Of a DNA stretch of 64,000 nucleotides, positions 4,364 through 21,153 are shown piece after piece; positions within the stretch are counted from its first letter, which is position 1; the number at the start of each line of letters is the position of its first letter. The DNA is from Cellulomonas alba (GTDB lineage: Bacteria > Actinomycetota > Actinomycetes > Actinomycetales > Cellulomonadaceae). The notes under the pieces are model-generated. The model worked only from the letters and a program-made list of their open reading frames with translations, searched no databases and was not told the origin of the DNA. Made by a program: the position numbers and the translations under genes. Where the stretch lies: contig NZ_JAUCGQ010000001.1 of NCBI RefSeq assembly GCF_030362835.1, forward strand, positions 1,963,461 through 2,027,460. Direction: 5' to 3'.

Positions 4364-5071
4364 TCACTCGTCGGCGTCGGGCTCGCCGCCCGTCCAGAAC
4401 AGGATGCGCGTGCGGCCGATCGTCAGCGTGTTGCCGTCGAGCAGCGTCGCCGCCGGCACCTGGTGGCCCTCGACGAACAGGCCGTTCGTCGACCCGAGGT
4501 CCGTGGCGACCACGCCGTCGGGCGTCACGCGGATCTCGAGGTGGCGGCGGCTCACGCCCGGGTCGTCGACGATGATGTCGGCGTCCGAGCCGCGGCCGAT
4601 CACCGTGGCGGCGCCGGTCAGGATGTAGCGCTGGCCGTCGATGTCGATCAACGGGTGGCGCGCGGTCGGGCCGACGCTGGTCGCGGGCGCCACGGCACCG
4701 CGCACCGTCGCGCTGTGCACGCGGAACTGACCCGTGTCCTGGTCGACGTCCTCCGCGAAGCTCACCGTCACCGGGCCGACGAACGCATAGCGCTGGCTCG
4801 CCGCGTAGTCGGTGACGTTGGCGGCGAACTCGTCGGCGAGCGCCTCCGCGCCCCAGGACTCCACCTGGTCGTAATCGGCCGTTGCGAGCTCGATCGTGAA
4901 CTCGTTCGGCACGACGGTCCGGTCGCGCCCGACGATCGCCGCCTTGTCGTCGACCTCGCGGCGCAGGCGCTGCACGAGGTCGACGGGCTTGAGGTCGGAG
5001 TGGAACGCCTTGGCGAACGCGGAGTTCACGGCGCGCTCGACCTTGCTCTCGAACCGGTCGAGGATGCCCAC
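4364..5071 (-). CDS. fhaA: FHA-domain protein FhaA (DUF3662 + FHA), short form
   Basis: First gene of the operon. The 235 residues hold an N-terminal DUF3662 domain (about 1-115; it opens MGILDRFESKVERAV) and a C-terminal FHA domain (about 145-230) with GRGSDADI, GVSRRHLEI and DLGSTNGLF. The Gly/Gln/Pro-rich linker of several hundred residues seen in the mycobacterial protein is almost absent. The start is a GTG preceded by GGAGGGAGG. FhaA is a scaffold that recognises phosphorylated MviN and links Ser/Thr kinases to peptidoglycan synthesis; that role is family knowledge. Confidence 0.95.
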   Translation of the reverse strand: MGILDRFESKVERAVNSAFAKAFHSDLKPVDLVQRLRREVDDKAAIVGRDRTVVPNEFTIELATADYDQVESWGAEALADEFAANVTDYAASQRYAFVGPVTVSFAEDVDQDTGQFRVHSATVRGAVAPATSVGPTARHPLIDIDGQRYILTGAATVIGRGSDADIIVDDPGVSRRHLEIRVTPDGVVATDLGSTNGLFVEGHQVPAATLLDGNTLTIGRTRILFWTGGEPDADE

Positions 5072-5314
5072 CCCGTGCCTCCCTCCGCGCTGTCAGGCGC
5101 GCCCGAATCCCGGGCGCACGGCGACGATCCGCCTCGATCGTAACTGTGACCTGCGGTGAACGACCGGACGGCGGCCCAGGATCGCCCCAGGGGTGGACGT
5201 ACCGGGCACGCGCGTCCACCCGACGACGGGCGTCGCGCCGTCCTCCGGGGGCGATCCGGGCACCCTGCCCGGGCGTCCAGGGGCGCCGCGCCACCGTGCT
5301 AATCTTTGCGGCGC

Positions 5315-11814: not shown

Positions 11815-14136
11815 TCAGGCCGGGACCGTCTCCCCGTCCGGCGCGGCCGGCGTCGCCTCGGCGTGCACGACGTACGGACGCGGCAGCTTCTCGCCCTCCA
11901 CGTCGACGTCCGGCAGCACCCGGTCGAGCCAGCGCGGCAGCCACCACGCCTTGTCGCCCATCAGGTAGAGCAGCGCCGGGATGAGCGCCATCCGCACGAC
12001 GAACGCGTCGAGCACGACGGCCGCGGCCAGCGCGAAGCCCATCGACTTGATGATCGGCTCGTCCATCAGGATGAAGGCCGCGAACACCGCCGTCATGATC
12101 GTGGCCGCCGCCGCGACGACGCGCGCCGACTGGCGGAACCCGTCGACCACCGCGTCGCGCATCGCCATGCCGTGCACGTGCGCCTCGCGGACGCGCGTCA
12201 CGAGGAACACCTGGTAGTCCATCGCGAGGCCGAACACGATGCCGATGAGGAACACCGGCATGAAGCTGATGATCGGCGCGCCCTCGACCAGGCCGCCGGT
12301 GCCCTTCTGGAACGCCTGCACGGTGACGCCGAGCGTCGCGAGGATCGACAGCAGGAACCCGAGCGTCGCGGTGAGCGGCACGAGGATCGACCGGAACACG
12401 AGCACGAGCAGCACGAACGCGAGGCCGATGACGATGGCGAGGTACACGGGCAGCGCCGCACCGAGCTTGTCGGAGACGTCGGTCTGGATCGCGGTCAGGC
12501 CGGTGACGCCGATCGTCGTGCCGGTCTTCTGCTCGATCGACGCCTGCTGGTCGCGCAGCTTGCCGAGCAGGGTCGACGTCGCGGTGTCGTCCGGGCCGGT
12601 GGTCGGCTGGATGAGCACCTGGGCGCCCGTGCCGTCGGCGTTCTGGCCGACGACCTGCGCGTTCGCCACACCCGGCTGGCCAGAGGCCCACGCGACGACG
12701 CCGCCGAACGCGGCCGGCCGGTCCGCGGCGTCGACCGAGCGCGCGTCGACGACCACGAGCAGCGGGCCCTCGCGGCCCGGGCCGAACGCCTCGCTCATCA
12801 GGTCGGACGCCCGGCGCGCCGAGGTGTCGGACGACGCGGTCGAGTCGCTCGGCAGAGCCAGGTGCAGGTCGCGGGCCGGCAGCGCGAGCGCCCCGAGGAG
12901 CACCACCGCGAGCAGCGCGACGGGGATGGGCCAGCGCCGGACGAACCGCGCCCAGCGCGTGCCGTTGTTGATGACGCGGCCGTCGGCCTCGCGCTTCGGC
13001 TCGTCCTTGCGCACCCGCCCGGCGAACGCCTTCGACTTGAGCATGCCGAGGATCGCCGGCAGCAGGGTCAGCGCGACGAGGACCGCGACGAGCACGGTGG
13101 CCGCCGCGGCGATGCCCATCGCGCCGAGGAAGGGGATGCCGACCACCGAGAGGAACGCGAGCGCGATCAGCACCGTGAGGCCCGCGAACACGACCGCCGT
13201 CCCCGCCGTGCCGACCGCGATGCCGATGGCCTCCTGCCGGTCGCCGTTCGTGCGCTCCAGCTCGGAGCGGTACCGCGCGAGGATGAACAGCGTGTAGTCG
13301 ATGCCGACCGCCAGGCCGATCATCGTCGCGAGCAGCGGCGTCGTCGCCGTGATGTCCATGAACCGCGTGAGGATCTCGATGCCGCCCACGCCGACGCCCA
13401 CGCCGACGAGGGCCGTGAGGATGGGCAGGCCCGCGGCGACGAGCGAGCCGAAGGTGAGGAGCAGCACGCCGAGCGCGATCGCGACGCCGACGACCTCGGC
13501 CGAGCCGCCCGCCTCGAAGCCGGCCTGCGCACCGGTGCCGTTCGCCTCGGCCGTCAGGCCCGCCGCGCGCGTCTTCGCGAGGGCGTCGTCGAGGGCCACG
13601 TGCGTCGCGTCCGCGACGTCGGCCTGCGTCTCGACGGCGAAGTCGAACGAGATCGTGCCGGTGCGGCCGTCCTGCGAGAGCGGTGACAGCGCCTGCGCGT
13701 TGGCCTCCGCCTGCTGCTGGGTCATGCCCGCCGCGACCGATGCCTGGACGAGCTGCTGCGCCTGCGCGGCCGAGGCCTCGACGGGGCCCGCGATCCGGTC
13801 CGCGGACGCGAGCTGCGGCAGCGCCCGCAGGTCACCGACGAGCGCGGCGACCGCGCCCGCGTACGGCGCGTCGGCGAGGCTCTTGCCCTGAGGCGCCGCG
13901 ACGACGACGTTGACGTTGACCTCGTTCGCGGCGTCGACGGCGTGCGGGAACAGCTCCTTCTGCAGGTCGGCCGCCCGCTCCGAGGGGATGCCCGGGATCG
14001 ACAGCGTGTTCGTCATCGGCTTGTGCAGCGCGCCGGCGAGACCACCGACGGCGACGAGGAGCACGAGCCACCCCACGACGAAGGCGGGCCAGCGCCGGTA
14101 GGCGGTGCGGCCGAGGCGGTGCAGCAGGGTGGCCAT
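11815..14136 (-). CDS. MmpL-family RND transporter
   Basis: A 773-residue RND permease of the MmpL type, with twelve predicted membrane helices in two halves and two large extracytoplasmic loops (about residues 35-195 and 410-550). Hallmarks are GIPSERAADLQKELFP early in loop 1, the GLAVGIDYTLFILARYR helix-4 motif with the proton-relay Asp-Tyr pair, and GLAMDYQVFLVTRVRE in the second half. MmpL proteins export lipids, siderophores or drugs. GGAG precedes the ATG by 7 nt. It follows the tetR gene by 88 nt on the same strand, probably one regulated operon. Confidence 0.94.
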   Translation of the reverse strand: MATLLHRLGRTAYRRWPAFVVGWLVLLVAVGGLAGALHKPMTNTLSIPGIPSERAADLQKELFPHAVDAANEVNVNVVVAAPQGKSLADAPYAGAVAALVGDLRALPQLASADRIAGPVEASAAQAQQLVQASVAAGMTQQQAEANAQALSPLSQDGRTGTISFDFAVETQADVADATHVALDDALAKTRAAGLTAEANGTGAQAGFEAGGSAEVVGVAIALGVLLLTFGSLVAAGLPILTALVGVGVGVGGIEILTRFMDITATTPLLATMIGLAVGIDYTLFILARYRSELERTNGDRQEAIGIAVGTAGTAVVFAGLTVLIALAFLSVVGIPFLGAMGIAAAATVLVAVLVALTLLPAILGMLKSKAFAGRVRKDEPKREADGRVINNGTRWARFVRRWPIPVALLAVVLLGALALPARDLHLALPSDSTASSDTSARRASDLMSEAFGPGREGPLLVVVDARSVDAADRPAAFGGVVAWASGQPGVANAQVVGQNADGTGAQVLIQPTTGPDDTATSTLLGKLRDQQASIEQKTGTTIGVTGLTAIQTDVSDKLGAALPVYLAIVIGLAFVLLVLVFRSILVPLTATLGFLLSILATLGVTVQAFQKGTGGLVEGAPIISFMPVFLIGIVFGLAMDYQVFLVTRVREAHVHGMAMRDAVVDGFRQSARVVAAAATIMTAVFAAFILMDEPIIKSMGFALAAAVVLDAFVVRMALIPALLYLMGDKAWWLPRWLDRVLPDVDVEGEKLPRPYVVHAEATPAAPDGETVPA

Positions 14137-14224
14137 GAGGAGCTCCGGGGGTTCTCGTCGCGTGGTGCGTCGTGGGGTGAAGGGTGGGTCGGGTGTCGCC
14201 GCGAGCGTGGCGAGCCGGTGGGCG

Positions 14225-14824
14225 TCAGGCGAAGAGCTCGGCGGCCGCGTGCAGCGTCGCGTCGAAGAGCTCGGCGAGCGTGCGGCTCTCCTCCGGCGCG
14301 AGGAACTGGTCGATCGAGGCGTCGAAGACCGTGACGAGGAGCTTGACCGCGAGCCGGGCGCGCTCCGCGCCGAAGCCGTCGCCCTCGCGTTCGAGGATCA
14401 GTGCGACGAGGTCCTCCGACGCCTGGTGGAACCGCGCGTGCTCGGCCTGCGCGGCGCGCGGTTCGTGCGCCAGGACGGCGCGTGTCGTGCGCAGCAGGTC
14501 CGGGTCGATCTCGTCCGGGAACGCCGTGAGGGCGCTCCCCAGGTGGACGACGTCGTCGAGGAGCCGGCCCGTCGGCCCCCCCGCGCGGAACGCGTCGACG
14601 GCGGCTCGCGTGCGCGGGTCGTCCTCGTCGGGGCGGCACGGCACCGCCAGGACGGCCTCGAGCTTGCTCGGGACGTGGTTGAACACGGTGCGGCGGGACA
14701 GCCCGACGGTCGCGGCGAGCTCGTCCATGGTCCAGCCGTCGAGGCCGCGCTCGAGGGTCAGGCGTTGGGCGCCGGCGACGACCCGACGGGCCGTCACGGC
14801 GCGACGGTCGGTGGGTGCGGGCAC
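14225..14824 (-). CDS. TetR-family repressor of the mmpL operon
   Basis: A 199-residue TetR regulator: N-terminal HTH (about residues 8-55, with TMDELAATVGLSRRTVFNHV) and a helical ligand domain. I chose the GTG at 14824 because a promoter with -10 CATACG ends 8 nt upstream, giving a nearly leaderless message, and because the homology starts there. The promoter is overlapped by a perfect 8-bp inverted repeat (14837-14859), so the protein probably represses itself and the downstream mmpL. Confidence 0.9.
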   Translation of the reverse strand: MPAPTDRRAVTARRVVAGAQRLTLERGLDGWTMDELAATVGLSRRTVFNHVPSKLEAVLAVPCRPDEDDPRTRAAVDAFRAGGPTGRLLDDVVHLGSALTAFPDEIDPDLLRTTRAVLAHEPRAAQAEHARFHQASEDLVALILEREGDGFGAERARLAVKLLVTVFDASIDQFLAPEESRTLAELFDATLHAAAELFA

Positions 14825-14831
14825 CGGGCGA

Positions 14832-14861
14832 CCGTATGCACTCTGGGTCCGAGAGTGCAAA
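14832..14861 (-). promoter_or_regulatory. Promoter with TetR operator for tetR-mmpL
   Basis: Perfect inverted repeat TGCACTCT-N7-AGAGTGCA at 14837-14859. On the minus strand the -35 TTGCAC and -10 CATACG (16-bp spacer) lie on its two arms. Occupancy would block RNA polymerase. Confidence 0.75.
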
Positions 14862-14891
14862 CGCGGGCCCACGGGCCGGGTGCGTGCGCGG

Positions 14892-16769
14892 TCACCCGAA
14901 CGTGAACGAGTAGAGCTCCACACCCGGGTCGGCGGTCAGCTCGACCGTCCCGCGCCTGGGGCCGCCCGCGTCGACCACGGGGTAGGACCTGGGCTCGCCG
15001 TCGACCGCGATCGTCCGCGACGAGGCCACTGCACCCGACGCGTCGCGCACGGTGACGCGGACGTTCCCCGCGCCGCCGAGGACCGACTGCACGAGCGTCG
15101 CGTGGTAGCGCAGCCGTGCCTCCGCGGCGTCGCCCGCGGTCGCGCCCTGCTGGTCGGTCGTCCACGCGCCGCCCAGCGCGACCGTGTCGGGGGGCTGGTC
15201 GGCAGGGAGCGAGTACGTGCCTGCGCCGTCGTGGTACGCGCCCGCGACGTTGCTCCGCTTGCCGATGCCGAGGAACGTCTCGGGAGTCGTGGCCGAGCGC
15301 GGCGTGGTGTCGGCGACGTCGGTCGGCGCGGGGAGCCTGAGGCTCGGGTCAGCCTGCTCCAGGAGGTCGCGGATCAGCTGCTCCGTGGTCGCGTACCCGC
15401 CCTCTCCCTGCGAGATCTGACGCACCGTGCCGCGCGCGTCCACGAGGTAGCTCGCGGGCCAGTACCGGTTCCGGTAGGCGGTCCAGGTCGCGTAGCCGTT
15501 GTCCTGCGCGACGGGGTACGTGATCCCGAGCCGGCGAGCGCCCTCGGTGACGTTGCGGGTCTCACGCTCGAACGCGTACTCCGGGGTGTGCACTCCGACG
15601 ACGACGAGGCCGGCCTTCGCGTACGTCCGGTACCACGCCTCGACGTGCGGCACCGAGCGCTGGCAGTTGATGCATGAGTAGGCCCAGAAGTCGATCAGCA
15701 CGACCTTGCCGCGCAGCTGCGCGAGGTCGACCGGTGGCGAGCCGATCCAGTGGTCGATGCCCTGGAGGGCAGGCGCCGGCCCGCAGTCCTGCAGCGTGGG
15801 CGAGTCGTTGTCGCACCGGCTCAGCCCGGCGTTCTCGCTGGTCACGAGGCCGCCGAGGTTGAGGCTTCGCCGGACCGTGCCGTTCGCGGCGACCTTCGAC
15901 TGGAGCGTGTCGGTGTACCCGGGCAGTGCACGCTGCACCGCGTCGGTGACGTTGAACGCCAGCGCGGCCGCGAGCGCGAGCATGAGCGCGCCGGCGACGA
16001 CCCGCACGGTCCGCTCGTGCGTGCGAAACACGGCGATCCGCTCGGCGGCGCGGCGCCCCGCGAGCGCGAGCAGCAGCAGCGGGATCGCCGCGCCCACGGC
16101 GAACGAGACCGTCAGGACGACGGTCCCGACCCCGACCGATCCCGTGGCGCCGGCGACGGTGATCGCGGCGAGCACGGGGCCGGCGCACGGCACGTAGACC
16201 GCCCCGAGGCCGAGCCCGAGCACGAAACCCCCGCGGCCCGAGCCCGGCGCGCGCCTCGGGGCTAGACGCGCGAACGGGCGCTCGACGACCGCCTCGAGGC
16301 GTGGGACGAGAAGGGCGAGGCCGAGGAGGGCCAGCACCGCGATGCCCGCCCACCGCAGCAGGTCCTCAGGCAGTCCGAGCGCGTGGAGGAGCAACGTCCC
16401 GACGAGCGTGACGAGCGTGAAGCTCGTGACGAGCCCCGCGATGACGAGGTACGGGCGGCCGCCGCGCGGCTTCTCCTGCCGCCCGGTCGTCACGGTCCGC
16501 TGCAGGGCGCTCGGCTGCAGGGCGCTCGGCACGGGCCCCGGAGCCGGGCGCGTCCCCGCGCCGGCCGCTACGTGGTTGCCCGCGAGGAAGGCCGGCTGCG
16601 CCAGCGCGCCCACCGTCACTGCTGCCTCGCCCCGCGACACGGCGGGCGTGCGTGCGCCCTGCACGCCGCCCGCGAGGAACACCACGGGGAGCACGGGGAG
16701 GATGCACGGCGAGATGCCGGTGATCAGGCCTCCGACGACACCGACGATCGCGAGCGTGAGCAGACTCAT
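14892..16769 (-). CDS. dipZ: DipZ: CcdA-thioredoxin fusion, membrane thiol-disulfide oxidoreductase
   Basis: A 625-residue fusion carrying reducing equivalents across the membrane to extracytoplasmic thiols. The N-terminal CcdA domain (about 1-290) has the paired cysteines C22 (GISPCILP) and C195 (YVPCAGP). It is followed by a TlpA-like thioredoxin domain with the DipZ motif SCINCQ (C366/C369) and the [11 protein letters not shown] segment, then a C-terminal carbohydrate-binding-like beta domain (about 490-625). An about 40-residue Ala/Pro-rich insertion follows the first helices. The ATG at 16769 sits at the start of a predicted SigK transcript, with no clear ribosome site, so it is probably leaderless. 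Its partner is the divergent fasciclin lipoprotein. Confidence 0.95.
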
Positions 16770-16776
16770 GCCCCCG

Positions 16777-16803
16777 GTTCGCTGCGGAGCGCCGCGCGGA
16801 TGG
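16777..16803 (-). promoter_or_regulatory. SigK-type promoter for dipZ
   Basis: Minus-strand -35 CCATCC (16803-16798), 15-bp spacer, -10 GCGAAC (16782-16777). This closely matches the mycobacterial SigK pattern CCATCC/CCGAAT. The expected start site is at about 16770, adjoining the dipZ ATG. Confidence 0.75.
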
Positions 16804-16863
16804 GTGCGACCGCCTCGTTGCGAGGCGCCGCCCGGGCATCGCCGGGTCCGCAGGAAGACGCAG

Positions 16864-16890
16864 CCATCCGCGACGGCGCCGGTTCCGAAC
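16864..16890 (+). promoter_or_regulatory. SigK-type promoter for the fasciclin lipoprotein
   Basis: -35 CCATCC (16864-16869), 15-bp spacer, -10 CCGAAC (16885-16890). The expected start at about 16897 leaves a 45-nt leader with GAGGAG before the ATG at 16942. Confidence 0.8.
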
Positions 16891-16941
16891 TCCTCACGAC
16901 GCCCCGGTGGGGCGCGTACCCGAACGGACCGAGGAGTCGAC

Positions 16942-17634
16942 ATGCGCACCAGCACCCGCACACGGATCACCGCAGTCGCCGTCGCCGGGTTCGCGAGCCT
17001 CGGCCTCGCGGCCTGCTCGTCGAACGGCAGCTCGACGGGATCGGGCGCGTCGTCGCCCGCGATGCAGGACACGCCGATGTCGACGCCGATGTCCAGCCCG
17101 ATGTCGACACCCATGAGCACGGACGGCAGCGCGATGGCGGCGGCGGACCTCGTCGGGCCCGGCTGCGCGGCCTACGCCGCGAAGGTGCCGACCGGCGCCG
17201 GCTCGATCACCGGCATGTCGACGGACCCCGTCGCGGTCGCCGCCTCGAACAACCCGATGCTGACGACCCTCACGGCAGCCGTCTCCGGCAAGCTCAACCC
17301 GAAGGTGAACCTGGTCTCCACGCTCGACGGCAGCGAGTTCACGGTGTTCGCGCCGGTCGACGACGCGTTCGCCAAGATCCCGGCCAAGACGATCGACTCG
17401 CTCAAGACCGACGACAAGACCCTGACCACGATCCTCACGTACCACGTCGTGCCCGGTCAGCTCTCGCCCAGCCAGGTCGTGGGTGACCACAAGACGGTCG
17501 AGGGCGGCATGGTCAAGGTCACCGGCTCCGGCGACGACCTCATGGTGAACGGCGCGAAGGTGGTCTGCGGCGGCGTGCACACCGCCAACGCCACGGTGTA
17601 CCTCATCGACTCGGTGCTGATGCCCGCGAAGTGA
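16942..17634 (+). CDS. Fasciclin-domain lipoprotein (MPT83/MPT70-like)
   Basis: A 230-residue surface lipoprotein. It has a lipobox GLAAC near residue 25, a low-complexity Ser/Gly/Met linker containing a short repeated MSTPM/MSSPM unit, and one fasciclin (FAS1) domain (about 95-230) with [13 protein letters not shown] and LTYHVVPG motifs. Two cysteines (GPGCAAY and KVVCGGV) flank the domain as in MPT70/83, where they form a disulfide; such a bond would be a plausible DipZ substrate. GAGGAG lies 5 nt before the ATG. Its SigK-type promoter and the neighbouring sigK-rskA genes place it in a SigK regulon. Confidence 0.93.
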
Positions 17635-17734
17635 CGCCGACGGACGACGACCTCGAGCCGGCGGCGAGCCGGCCGACCTGACTCCCGGTCGCCGCGGCGA
17701 CCGGCTCCGGCCGACGCGCCCGGCGTCCGGCCCG

Positions 17735-17770
17735 CGCAGCCCCCTTGCACAGGACGGCGAGGGGGCTGCG
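17735..17770. terminator. Bidirectional terminator between fasciclin gene and rskA
   Basis: 11-bp inverted repeat CGCAGCCCCCT / AGGGGGCTGCG with a 14-nt loop between two convergent genes. Confidence 0.85.
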
Positions 17771-17859
17771 GCGTGCCCGTGCCGGTTCGGGCGTCCGCGG
17801 GCTCGCCGGGGCGACGCCGAGCCGGGCCCTCGCGCGGGCTGTTCGGAGTGGGACGCGGC

Positions 17860-18609
17860 TCAGGCGGAGAGGACGACGAGCGGCGCAGTGGTCGGCTGGG
17901 GCGACCCTCCCGCCGGCTCGAGCGTCATGGCGAGCGAGTCGCCCGCGCTGAAGCCGTCCGCGACCAGCGCGTGCTGGTCACCACCGTCGGGCATGAGACC
18001 GGCCGACCTTGGCGTGCCGTCGGCGAGCACCCAGAGCTGGTAGACGTGCCCCGGTGCGGGCTCCGGCAGGTCGGTCACCGCGAACAGTGCGCGGTCCCCG
18101 GTGACGACGGCAGTCGCCTGGCCGCCGCCCGACACGTCGCCGTGGACAACCGATGCCGACGGGTCCGAGAGCAGCCCCGCCAGAGCGGCCTGCTGCTGCT
18201 CCACGTGATCGAGCCGGTGCGCCTGCTGCACGGCGATCGCGGTGGGGATCGCCGCGCCGACGACGAACGCGGCCGCGATCGCCACCCACCGCACGGGCGT
18301 CCGTCGCCGCGAGTCGAGCGGCGTGACGGTCGCGGGCCGGGGCGCGCGAGGTTCCGCCTGCGGGGCCTCGGGCTCGACCTGAGGCGTCCGCCGCGCGGCC
18401 GCGAGCACGTCGGCACGCAGCTGCGGCGGCGGGGGCGTCGCGGAGGTCGCCGCCAGCCGGGCGGCGACCTCGCGGAACCCCGCGAGCTCGCGCACCGCGG
18501 TCGGGTCCGTGGCCAGGAGCCGCTCGACCGCACGGCGCTCGTCGTCGTCGACGGCGTCCAGCGCGTACGCCGCCAGCAGGTCGCGGGCCAGCTCGTCGTC
18601 CTCGCTCAT
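17860..18609 (-). CDS. rskA: Anti-sigma-K factor RskA
   Basis: A 249-residue single-pass anti-sigma factor. The cytoplasmic N-terminal sigma-binding region (about 1-100) opens MSEDDELARDLLAAYALDAV and lacks a zinc HxxxCxxC motif, as in the RskA type. One membrane helix lies at about 105-127. The extracytoplasmic RskA C-terminal domain (about 130-249) contains YQLWVLADGTPRSAG and SLAMTLEPAGGSPQP. The ATG overlaps the sigK stop (ATGA), ensuring coupled synthesis. The family holds SigK at the membrane until proteolysis or redox change releases it. Confidence 0.95.
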   Translation of the reverse strand: MSEDDELARDLLAAYALDAVDDDERRAVERLLATDPTAVRELAGFREVAARLAATSATPPPPQLRADVLAAARRTPQVEPEAPQAEPRAPRPATVTPLDSRRRTPVRWVAIAAAFVVGAAIPTAIAVQQAHRLDHVEQQQAALAGLLSDPSASVVHGDVSGGGQATAVVTGDRALFAVTDLPEPAPGHVYQLWVLADGTPRSAGLMPDGGDQHALVADGFSAGDSLAMTLEPAGGSPQPTTAPLVVLSA

Positions 18610-19325
18610 GCCGTCACCCCCAGACAAAGGCGCAGCCGGATGAGCCCGTCGCGGATCCGCGACTTCACGGTCGGGAGCGCGGCTCCCAGCTCGTCCGCGA
18701 CCTCGCGGTACGTGCGACCGCCGTAGTAGGCGAGCAGGACGGCCTCGCGCTGCGTGGCGGTCAGCGAGCCGAGGCAGTCGCGCACCCGCGCTCGTTCGAG
18801 CTCGTCCGCGACACCGTCGGCCACCTCGTCGAAGGGTCGCCGGGGCTCGGCGTCGAGGTCGCGCTGGTCGCGGTCGCGCTGCGCCTGCACGGCACGCACC
18901 CGGTCGACGGCCCGCCGGTGCGCGGTCGTCAGCGCCCAGGCTCGGGCGGACCCGCGCGCGGCGTCGAAGCGCGGTGCGGTGCGCCACACGTCGAGCCACA
19001 CCTCCTGCGCGACCTCGGCCGCGTGGTCGGGGTCGCGCAGCACGCGCAGGCACACGCCGAAGACGGCAGCGCCGAGGCGGTCGTACAGCCGCTCGAACGC
19101 GGCCTCGTCGCCGGCGGCGACGTCACGGAGCAACGCGTCCGCGGTCACCTCCGGCCCGCGCGCGTCGACGGCGGCGGGCACCTGAGGTCGTTGCGGCACG
19201 CCCGCCAGTCTCACGCACCCCGCTCGCGCACGCGCGCGCGGCGCCGACCGCGGGCGCCGTGCCCGGCGCAGCTCGGACGCGCTGCCGTGGCCGGTGACGG
19301 GTCGCATGCGCGCCACGCCGAGCAT
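18606..19325 (-). CDS. sigK: ECF RNA polymerase sigma factor SigK
   Basis: ECF sigma factor with region 2 (FERLYDRLGAAVFGV... DPDHAAEVAQEVWLDVW) and region 4 (LTATQREAVLLAYYGGRTYRE, then helix-turn-helix). I chose the ATG at 19325 because GGAGGT lies 7 nt upstream and it falls 48 nt after the predicted SigK-dependent start. This gives 239 residues with an about 45-residue basic N-terminal extension not usual for SigK; a GTG near 19202 would give a conventional length. Followed by overlapping rskA. Promoters matching its own recognition sequence precede itself, dipZ and the fasciclin gene. Confidence 0.93.
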   Translation of the reverse strand: MLGVARMRPVTGHGSASELRRARRPRSAPRARARAGCVRLAGVPQRPQVPAAVDARGPEVTADALLRDVAAGDEAAFERLYDRLGAAVFGVCLRVLRDPDHAAEVAQEVWLDVWRTAPRFDAARGSARAWALTTAHRRAVDRVRAVQAQRDRDQRDLDAEPRRPFDEVADGVADELERARVRDCLGSLTATQREAVLLAYYGGRTYREVADELGAALPTVKSRIRDGLIRLRLCLGVTA

Positions 19326-19345
19326 CGCCACCACCTCCGGACGAT

Positions 19346-19378
19346 CCCATCGAGCCCGGCGACAACGGGCTCGATGGG
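19346..19378 (-). terminator. 13-bp perfect hairpin between lipoprotein gene and sigK
   Basis: CCCATCGAGCCCG / CGGGCTCGATGGG with a 7-nt loop. On the minus strand it lies 41 nt after the LppX-like gene's stop and is probably its terminator. The predicted sigK start site (about 19373) falls inside its first arm, so a sigK-initiated RNA would have most of one arm and the full second arm. Confidence 0.8.
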
Positions 19379-19379
19379 T

Positions 19380-19406
19380 GTTCGGTGCCGCCGTCCCGAC
19401 GGATGG
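19380..19406 (-). promoter_or_regulatory. SigK-type promoter for sigK-rskA (autoregulation)
   Basis: Minus-strand -35 CCATCC (19406-19401), 15-bp spacer, -10 CCGAAC (19385-19380). Identical in both hexamers and spacer length to the fasciclin promoter. Confidence 0.8.
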
Positions 19407-19418
19407 CTGCGCGAACAC

Positions 19419-20225
19419 TCAGAACGGCGAGTCGGTGATCTCGTCCGCGCTCGGCGCCGTGACGGGGGCGCCCGCGCCCCAGTGGCTGAACGTCATGTCG
19501 ACCGTCGTGCCGAGCACCGACGTCGTCACCTTGCGCAGCCGGTTGTCGGGGCCGACCCAGTAGCGGTAGGTCAGCGTGGCCGGGAGCTTGACGTCCGTCG
19601 AGCCGAGCTGCGACTGCAGCGACGCGATCTTGCTCGTGTCGAGCGTGACGTCATAGGGCTGCGCGGCGACGCCGTCGAGCTGGACCGGCGCGCCGGCCTT
19701 CGCGACGCTGACGACGGCGCCCTGGATCTCCCGGATGCTCTGCGCCGGGTCCGACTGCTGGGTGAGCTGGTCGAACGACGAGGCGAGCGGGTTCGACGTG
19801 TCCTTCGGGTCGATGACGAAGAACTTGCCCTTCGTCAGCTGCGGCATCGACATGTACGCCTTGCCGCCCACGAACCGCATCTCGATCGTGCCCTGGTCCG
19901 CGATGTCCATCGTCATGGCGAGGGTGGGCGTCGCCGCCGACGTCCCGACCTCGGCCGAGCCGCGCGCCGTGACGGCCTGACCCTGCGCCGTCATGTTCAT
20001 GGTGAAGTCGTAGCTCGCGGCCTTCGTCATGGCCGCACCGAGCGTGTCGGCGAAGGTCGCCGCGGTCAGCTCGACCGGAGCGGTCGGCGTCGGCGTGGCC
20101 GAGGCGCCGGCGTGGGCACGCGTGGGGTCGGCGGCCGCATCGTGGCTGCCGGCGTCGCAGGCGCCGAGGAGCGCGACGACGGCGACGCTCGCGGCGACGG
20201 TGAGGACTCGGACGGGACGACGCAC
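19419..20225 (-). CDS. LppX/LprG-like lipoprotein
   Basis: A 268-residue lipoprotein with signal peptide and lipobox LLGAC (Cys about residue 23), an Ala/Thr/Pro-rich linker, and a beta-rich domain typical of the LppX/LprAFG group, which carries lipids or glycolipids between membrane and envelope. Family features include YDFTMNMTAQGQ, EMRFVGGKAYMSMPQ and YRYWVGPDNRLRKV. GTG start with AGGGGG about 7 nt upstream. It ends just before the sigK promoter; a hairpin follows. A role in lipid transport is inferred from family only. Confidence 0.85.
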   Translation of the reverse strand: MRRPVRVLTVAASVAVVALLGACDAGSHDAAADPTRAHAGASATPTPTAPVELTAATFADTLGAAMTKAASYDFTMNMTAQGQAVTARGSAEVGTSAATPTLAMTMDIADQGTIEMRFVGGKAYMSMPQLTKGKFFVIDPKDTSNPLASSFDQLTQQSDPAQSIREIQGAVVSVAKAGAPVQLDGVAAQPYDVTLDTSKIASLQSQLGSTDVKLPATLTYRYWVGPDNRLRKVTTSVLGTTVDMTFSHWGAGAPVTAPSADEITDSPF

Positions 20226-20239
20226 GGGACTACCCCCTG

Positions 20240-20281
20240 GGTGTGCTCGTCCGGCTGAGGCCGCCGGCGGACGAGCACACC
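20240..20281. terminator. Hairpin after the VOC gene, adjoining the lipoprotein start
   Basis: 14-bp perfect inverted repeat GGTGTGCTCGTCCG / CGGACGAGCACACC, 14-nt loop. On the minus strand it follows the VOC gene's stop by 66 nt and ends 15 nt before the lipoprotein GTG, so it could terminate the former or act within the leader of the latter. Confidence 0.75.
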
Positions 20282-20346
20282 GTCGCGGCCGCCAGCAGGA
20301 TGCCATGCGCGCCGGCCCGGCGTCCGCGACTCTGCACCGGCTGGGG

Positions 20347-21153
20347 CTAACCGGCCGCGTCGAAGAAGCAGAACGGGTGACCCGCCGGGTCGATCAGCAC
20401 GCGCACGTGCTCCTGCGGCTGGAAGTCCGCGAGCCGCGAGCCGCACGCGAGCGCGTGCTCGACGCCGCGCGCGAGGTCGTCCACGAGGAAGTCGGGGTGC
20501 AGCTCCATCTGCTGGTGGTCGTCCGTCGCGGGCCACACCGGGGGCCGGTACCGCGGGTCGGACGAGAACGACAGGCCGGAGCCGCCCGCCGGCGGCCGGA
20601 GCTGCGCCCAGTCCTCGTCCTCGGAGACGCGCGTCCAGCCGAGCAGACGCTCGTAGAAGTCGGCGAGCTCGCGCGCGTCGAGGCACTCGAGCACCGTCGA
20701 GACCAGCGTCACCTCGATGTTCGCGTGGCGGGTCGGCGTGGGCAGGCGCGGGGCGGCGTCCCGGCGCGCGTCCGAGACGGTGGCGCCGCTCGTCAGCGGG
20801 CTCTCGTGGTGCGGCTCGTAGAGCCCGAGCGTCGCGCCGCTCGGCAGGGCGATGCTCGTGACGAGCCCGTAGCCCGCCTCGCGCGGCGGCGCCTCGGGCT
20901 CGACGCCGCGACGGGCGAGGTCGGCGAGCGTGCGTTCCAGGTCGTCGCACATCAGGAACAGCGTCGCGCCCTGACCGAGCAGGCCGCTCGCGCCCGGGTG
21001 CACGCCGAGCTCCGCGGGCGGCAGGCCGAAGATCAGCCAGCCGTCGCCCGACGCGGCGTCCTCGACCCACGGCCAGCCGAGCCGGTCGCGCAGGAACTCA
21101 CGGTCCGCGGCGGGGTCGTCGCTGGGCAGCAGCACGTGGAAGCCGGTGATCAC
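20347..21153 (-). CDS. Double VOC (glyoxalase/bleomycin-resistance fold) protein
   Basis: A 268-residue protein with two VOC domains in one chain: the first opens VITGFHVLLPSDDPAADREF (residues 1-135) and the second (about 150-268) contains LDARELADFYERLLGW and ends DPAGHPFCFFDAAG. A charged linker joins them. VOC proteins include dioxygenases, isomerases and antibiotic-binding proteins; the second domain resembles single-domain VOC proteins often found alone in actinobacteria. I prefer the GTG at 21153; a longer frame upstream is low complexity. Enzymatic function cannot be assigned. Confidence 0.85.
   Translation of the reverse strand: MITGFHVLLPSDDPAADREFLRDRLGWPWVEDAASGDGWLIFGLPPAELGVHPGASGLLGQGATLFLMCDDLERTLADLARRGVEPEAPPREAGYGLVTSIALPSGATLGLYEPHHESPLTSGATVSDARRDAAPRLPTPTRHANIEVTLVSTVLECLDARELADFYERLLGWTRVSEDEDWAQLRPPAGGSGLSFSSDPRYRPPVWPATDDHQQMELHPDFLVDDLARGVEHALACGSRLADFQPQEHVRVLIDPAGHPFCFFDAAG

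Follow-up and report, generated by a model that had tools for sequence, protein, structure and literature searches.

We analysed a stretch of 64,000 nucleotides from Cellulomonas alba (contig NZ_JAUCGQ010000001.1, positions 1,963,461 to 2,027,460 of the forward strand; hereafter the window), which carries an island of four genes around an extracytoplasmic function (ECF) sigma factor of the SigK type. The island begins on the minus strand with dipZ (14892..16769), whose product combines a CcdA-like membrane part, a thioredoxin-like part and a C-terminal Thioredoxin_10 domain (Pfam DsbD_TM, AhpC-TSA/Redoxin and Thioredoxin_10). The gene on the plus strand (16942..17634; hereafter fas) encodes an MPT70/MPT83-type fasciclin protein with a methionine-rich linker (Pfam Fasciclin), a lipoprotein as judged from its signal sequence, and its closest solved structure by sequence is MPT70 (1nyo, E = 8.2e-65). 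SigK itself is encoded on the minus strand (18606..19331; Sigma70_r2 and r4_2) and finds its best PDB match in SigK (4nqw, E = 1.2e-48; next best 4.8e-19). The start codon of sigK is uncertain, and the resemblance to relatives starts at about residue 58-63 of the frame. The start of rskA (17860..18609, minus strand), which encodes a membrane anti-sigma factor (RskA_C, 3e-26; RskA_N, 2.9e-6), overlaps the sigK stop. Both cysteines of SigK are kept, DCLGSLT and LCLGV aligning with ECLKALT and NCLDV of 4nqw; the redox cysteines of M. tuberculosis SigK are numbered 133 and 183 in the excerpt of PMC7509140 available to us.

The mycobacterial SigK consensus consists of a -35 element CCATCC and a -10 element CCGAA(T). 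An earlier note on this DNA had described CCATCC-N15-[CG]CGAAC upstream of dipZ, fas and sigK-rskA, and all three sites were recovered where it had placed them, each with a spacer of 15 nt (N15). The dipZ site lies at 16777..16803 on the minus strand (-35 CCATCC at 16803-16798, -10 GCGAAC at 16782-16777), the fas site at 16864..16890 on the plus strand (-35 at 16864-16869, -10 CCGAAC at 16885-16890) and the sigK-rskA site at 19380..19406 on the minus strand (-35 at 19406-19401, -10 CCGAAC at 19385-19380). Departures from the consensus are confined to the last -10 base, which is C, and the first one, which is G at dipZ. A scan of the window with CCATCC-N14-18-[CG]CGAA[CT] returned these three sites only, and in 100 dinucleotide shuffles of the window the mean was 0.06 matches and the maximum 1.

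The whole-genome scan proposed in the earlier note was carried out on the 3,795,804 bases (7 contigs) of the source genome. Allowing spacers of 13-19 nt, 14 matches were obtained, and the exact N15 motif was present at four places only, each preceding a gene: the three island sites and G000:C1:2675797-2675823 (minus strand), separated by 693 kb from the sigK site. According to a composition-based reading-frame heuristic, all four are non-coding with a gene start shortly downstream, and several of the ten matches with other spacers lie inside long frames. The genome also contains 49 N15 sites with one mismatch; 40 were examined, the same heuristic calling 26 coding and 14 non-coding, and at four of the latter (L019, L032, L034 and L035), which we do not claim as targets, a gene begins no more than 120 nt away.

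The comparison with orthologous loci, also suggested by the earlier note, showed that the same positions are conserved at fas and sigK across the Cellulomonadaceae. Scanning 58 SigK neighbourhoods (L071-L128) from 57 other genomes of the family with the wide pattern gave 105 matches, of which 97 were N15, seven N16 (all at fas) and one N14, located away from the genes concerned. In a separate upstream test, restricted to matches with an identity of 55% or more for which 400 nt upstream were available (55 for SigK, 42 for the fasciclin lipoprotein, 14 for DipZ), a site matching 11-12 of the 12 bases was found upstream of fas in 42/42 cases and of sigK in 46/55, and none of 111 control windows of equal size placed within the genes reached 11/12. 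At the remaining nine sigK loci, distributed over four genera (L076, L079, L080, L081, L083, L090, L119, L120 and L125), an exact N15 site precedes the gene of another lipoprotein (lipoprotein X, about 430 residues, its frame readable in 8 of the 9 loci), which itself precedes sigK, the latter presumably being a downstream member of that operon. Neither fas nor dipZ was found in these nine neighbourhoods, and the first 160 residues of one lipoprotein X gave no Pfam match up to E = 0.1. Three pairs among the loci are duplicates (L165/L071, L168/L072 and L175/L074).

The occurrence of the motif was then related to that of the sigma factor in 101 Cellulomonadaceae genomes, 58 of which encode SigK at E 1e-25 or better (G022 and G066 being counted at only about 50% identity) and 43 do not. 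Exact CCATCC-N15-CCGAAC occurred 178 times in the SigK genomes (3.07 per genome) and 21 times in the others (0.49; one-sided Mann-Whitney p 5e-15). With a 17-nt spacer as control, no difference was seen (71 sites, 1.22 per genome, versus 56, 1.30; p 0.54). DipZ (E 1e-60) was detected in 39 of the 101 genomes, and all 39 also encode SigK (hypergeometric p 6e-14).

We therefore consider it very probable that the adjacent SigK reads the three sites as promoters, as the earlier note had proposed: N15 counts track the presence of SigK, the sites are conserved at sigK and fas, and the gene content is that of the mycobacterial system. SigK binding and the start sites given below are deduced from sequence. 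A GC-rich genome could in principle yield three look-alike strings close together, and the 14 matches with spacers of 13-19 nt, like the 21 exact N15 sites in the 43 genomes lacking SigK, do indicate a background of such strings; since no shuffled window reached three matches and the positions recur at orthologous genes but never in the control windows, coincidence is extremely improbable. Alternatively, the sites could be promoters of another ECF sigma factor with similar hexamers, SigK being just one of the regulated genes, because the -35 and -10 hexamers of related ECF factors overlap and a loose first look gave 46 ECF candidates in this genome. This is very unlikely, given that the N15 count follows this particular SigK across the 101 genomes, that dipZ occurs with SigK in 39 of 39 cases, and that in M. 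tuberculosis mpt83, mpt70 and dipZ are each described, in the accessible part of PMC9861118, as having their own SigK-dependent promoter.

Several observations weigh against assigning the sites to SigK as one coherent regulon. Of the 43 genomes lacking SigK, 17 have one or two exact N15 sites, and 3 of the 58 that encode it (G030, G066 and G076) have none, so that an exact match is not sufficient by itself, nor is it retained everywhere. Among 29 family loci chosen by the pattern alone, about ten look like chance matches, and 35 of 45 SigK loci from outside the family lack an exact N15 site. In addition, light raised the expression of the two fasciclin genes of M. kansasii and not of dipZ, according to the same part of PMC9861118, which means that SigK targets need not always move together.

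The earlier note had also held that the spacer is shorter outside mycobacteria and that C has replaced T at the last -10 base. The former was not borne out when SigK loci from outside the family (45) and from within it (21) were surveyed. Besides the 97 of 105 family matches, 10 of the 19 obtained outside, spread over 10 of the 45 loci, were N15, including all seven placed next to SigK, and this spacing was found in mycobacterial-type genomes, as exact sites in L254 and L257 and as weaker ones (9-10/12) in L285, L289 and L290. No printed spacer length for mycobacterial SigK promoters was found in the portions of the searched literature that were available. Regarding the last -10 base, C is indeed present at all four sites of this genome, but T recurs both inside the family (4 of 105 matches) and outside it (6 of the 10 N15 matches), which indicates that this base drifts with lineage.

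The aligned sites share a further signature downstream of the -10 element. The eighth base after the hexamer is a purine at 26/26 dipZ, 26/26 sigK, 9/9 lipoprotein X and 41/43 fas sites; a pyrimidine precedes it at 26, 24, 9 and 41 of these sites, respectively. A pyrimidine-purine step is the usual initiator signature, and its occurrence at one position for four types of genes would mark the predicted transcription start. By this signature, transcription in the window would start at G 16898 for fas (plus strand) and at G 19372 for sigK-rskA (minus strand). For dipZ, the predicted start coincides with the A of the ATG at 16769 (minus strand), at the distance of 7 nt from the -10 element that is also found in relatives. 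The dipZ mRNA is therefore predicted to be leaderless, with no room for a ribosome site.

In all 49 rows from the family, three being duplicates, the dipZ ATG lies exactly 7 nt beyond the -10 element, with minor peculiarities in L127 (a second ATG 5 nt earlier), L170 (N16) and L098 (a score of only 10/12). The same distance was found in the dipZ-fas pair of G092 (L331), located 635 kb from its sigK. Outside the family, dipZ matches came from five genomes of one mycobacterial-type genus. In three of them (L285, L289 and L290), a GTG or ATG lies 7 nt after an (A/C)CGAAT -10 element with a spacer of 15 nt and a weak -35 element, the totals being 10, 9 and 9 of 12 and the latter two tied with another candidate; DipZ of L285 is close to the M. 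tuberculosis DipZ of solved structure (E 1e-185). L299 showed no such layout at dipZ, and no N-terminus was located in L298. In four genomes of the same order and of another family (L280-L283), the dipZ site is weaker or set further upstream, hence the leaderless arrangement is not universal. Two relatives carry putative LuxR-like (L334, from about 993) and GtrA-like (L333, from about 981) genes whose ATG also lies exactly 7 nt past an exact N15 site, as in dipZ.

The leaders of the other two transcripts were searched for 5' hairpins, defined as a stem of 6 or more consecutive pairs, G-U included, within the first 34 nt, base 8 being taken as +1; leaders containing N or shorter than 34 nt and identical leaders were omitted, and the shuffles used for comparison preserve base composition only. 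Such a stem was present in 34 of 47 distinct fas leaders (shuffles 11%), in 28 of which it begins at +5, and in 16 of 28 sigK leaders (shuffles 23%), in 11 of which it begins exactly at +1; in both groups the stems have several different sequences. No excess was seen in dipZ leaders (4/28, shuffles 27%) or in the 14 leaders of all sites not placed at dipZ, fas or sigK, mostly those of lipoprotein X (1/14, shuffles 5%). In the window, the fas mRNA may form a hairpin close to its 5' end, from the predicted +3 (16900..16914, plus strand; CGCCCC-GGT-GGGGCG, 6 bp), but folding the first 50 nt of this leader for minimum energy gives a different structure. At sigK, a perfect inverted repeat of 13 bp (19346..19378, minus strand; arms 19378-19366 and 19358-19346, loop of 7) includes a part, 19352-19372, that would form a 7-bp hairpin at the very 5' end of the sigK mRNA from the predicted start onwards. 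An Rfam search over 14800-20800 gave no match up to E = 1.

Most likely, these hairpins would serve to protect the mRNA 5' end. The palindrome at sigK also spans untranscribed bases, reaching 6 bp upstream of the predicted start, and could instead be a DNA operator for a repressor of sigK. Folding of sigK leaders is weak on average, in agreement with such an operator (mean z-score over the first 45 nt -0.20, versus -1.28 for fas), and, together with the leaders devoid of a stem, this also speaks against hairpins as a universal feature. The operator is nevertheless a rather unlikely alternative, in view of the 11 of 16 sigK stems that begin exactly at the predicted +1 with several unrelated sequences, and of the stems of fas leaders, at +5 in 28 of 34, which fit RNA better than one protein-binding site.

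The fourth N15 site of the genome precedes a gene encoding a DUF4383 membrane protein (Pfam PF14325, 2.1e-19). A survey of DUF4383 gave 48 copies in 38 genomes, 30 of them with loci. Orthologues of at least 69% identity had a site of 11-12/12 upstream in 14 of 14 cases (13 N15 and one N16), and all 14 genomes encode SigK; among more distant copies, the site was present in 3 of 16 examined. In control windows of equal width, read on one strand, 7 of 582 reached 11. The frame that follows the DUF4383 gene (G000:C1 about 2674735-2675305; L129 about 4735-5305, minus strand) is of membrane type and has a Met/His-rich end, MPGMGGMPGMSGTGHH. Methionine-rich ends or linkers are found here and in the fasciclin lipoprotein, and methionine oxidation or copper binding may connect the two.

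These data qualify the claim of the earlier note that the whole island, including sigK, forms one local regulon. SigK-type promoters do stand before sigK, fas and dipZ. A purely local regulon is ruled out by the unlinked DUF4383 site, with the same promoter 693 kb away, and by the unlinked dipZ-fas pair of G092, which has the same promoters. Nor is the whole island included, as the window scan revealed no exact SigK site at the lipoprotein-like gene 19419-20228 (minus strand). This gene immediately precedes the sigK promoter, on whose strand it lies, and its product showed a DUF7537 match below the cut-off.

In the model we propose, membrane-bound RskA would keep SigK inactive until an envelope or redox signal frees it. 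Freed SigK would then activate its own operon, fas, dipZ and the unlinked DUF4383-led operon, RNA polymerase initiating at the eighth base past the -10 hexamer. The dipZ mRNA would be translated without a leader, and the fas and sigK mRNAs would carry leaders that begin with a hairpin in many relatives. We suggest, tentatively, that leaderless dipZ, hairpin-first fas and sigK and the DUF4383 operon as a core unlinked target make up a conserved post-transcriptional layout. If so, one sigma factor would give the redox enzyme a translation or stability different from that of its lipoprotein partner, in the Cellulomonadaceae and, as regards leaderless dipZ, in mycobacteria as well.

The idea of a SigK circuit is already known, and a real, well-conserved regulon is present here. 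That its architecture was retained outside mycobacteria, as the earlier note stated, agrees with its conservation across the Cellulomonadaceae and is already in print: SigK sites are described as strongly conserved in the Actinobacteria, and even Yersinia has an mpt83-sigK-rskA cassette provided with a SigK site, the M. tuberculosis and Yersinia factors being assigned to ECF18 and ECF19, respectively (passages available from PMC7509140, citing Veyrier 2008 for the conservation of the sites). The island shares with this cassette the linkage of fasciclin gene, sigK and rskA and a site conserved outside mycobacteria, and differs from it in that dipZ belongs to the island as well, and in the features described here: the predicted leaderless dipZ mRNA, the target encoding DUF4383 and the hairpins of 5' leaders. 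In the mycobacterial regulon, as far as the excerpts at hand describe it, SigK with RskA, an MPT70/83-type fasciclin protein and DipZ are likewise found, each with its own SigK site; both SigK cysteines and, in the mycobacterial-type genomes seen, the spacer of 15 nt are also common to the two. The present system is distinguished by the grouping of dipZ, fas and sigK-rskA in one island, by the C at the last -10 base and by the DUF4383 operon in trans. In the M. tuberculosis operon, sigK comes after other genes.

C. pseudotuberculosis resembles our genome in that sigK, its anti-sigma factor and dipZ are grouped, in the island PiCp2; the available part of this account contains no promoter analysis and does not mention fasciclin (PMC3078919). 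According to the same part, only pathogenic Actinobacteria have full-length dipZ; its presence in 39 of the 101 family genomes contradicts this. We found no open-access article whose title or beginning of abstract dealt with SigK together with Cellulomonas or fasciclin, with a leaderless SigK or dipZ transcript, or with DUF4383 and sigma factors. What the present work adds to the known circuit is a definition across the family, the DUF4383 gene as an unlinked target, the constant leaderless layout of dipZ and the 5' hairpins. SigK controls two major antigens of tubercle bacilli, and the stimuli to which it responds are called obscure (PMC9861118, in the part available). A soil family with the same core of SigK, RskA, fasciclin lipoprotein and DipZ, with clean promoters and only four exact sites in this genome, would lend itself, as a small, safe model, to tests of what induces SigK, of the rule for start sites and of what DipZ does; the DUF4383 target and the leaderless dipZ mRNA are specific predictions that can be checked.

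Sites chosen on the motif alone are also found before genes for CHRD-like proteins in four loci (L135, L146, L157 and L332; Pfam CHRD for the L146 protein, 2.8e-5), and these, with the LuxR-like and GtrA-like genes, are leads for further SigK targets. In the window, putative TetR-like and MmpL-like frames, recognized by eye, lie behind dipZ on the same strand (11815-14923, minus strand); the TetR-like frame overlaps the end of dipZ, and both might be co-transcribed from its SigK promoter.

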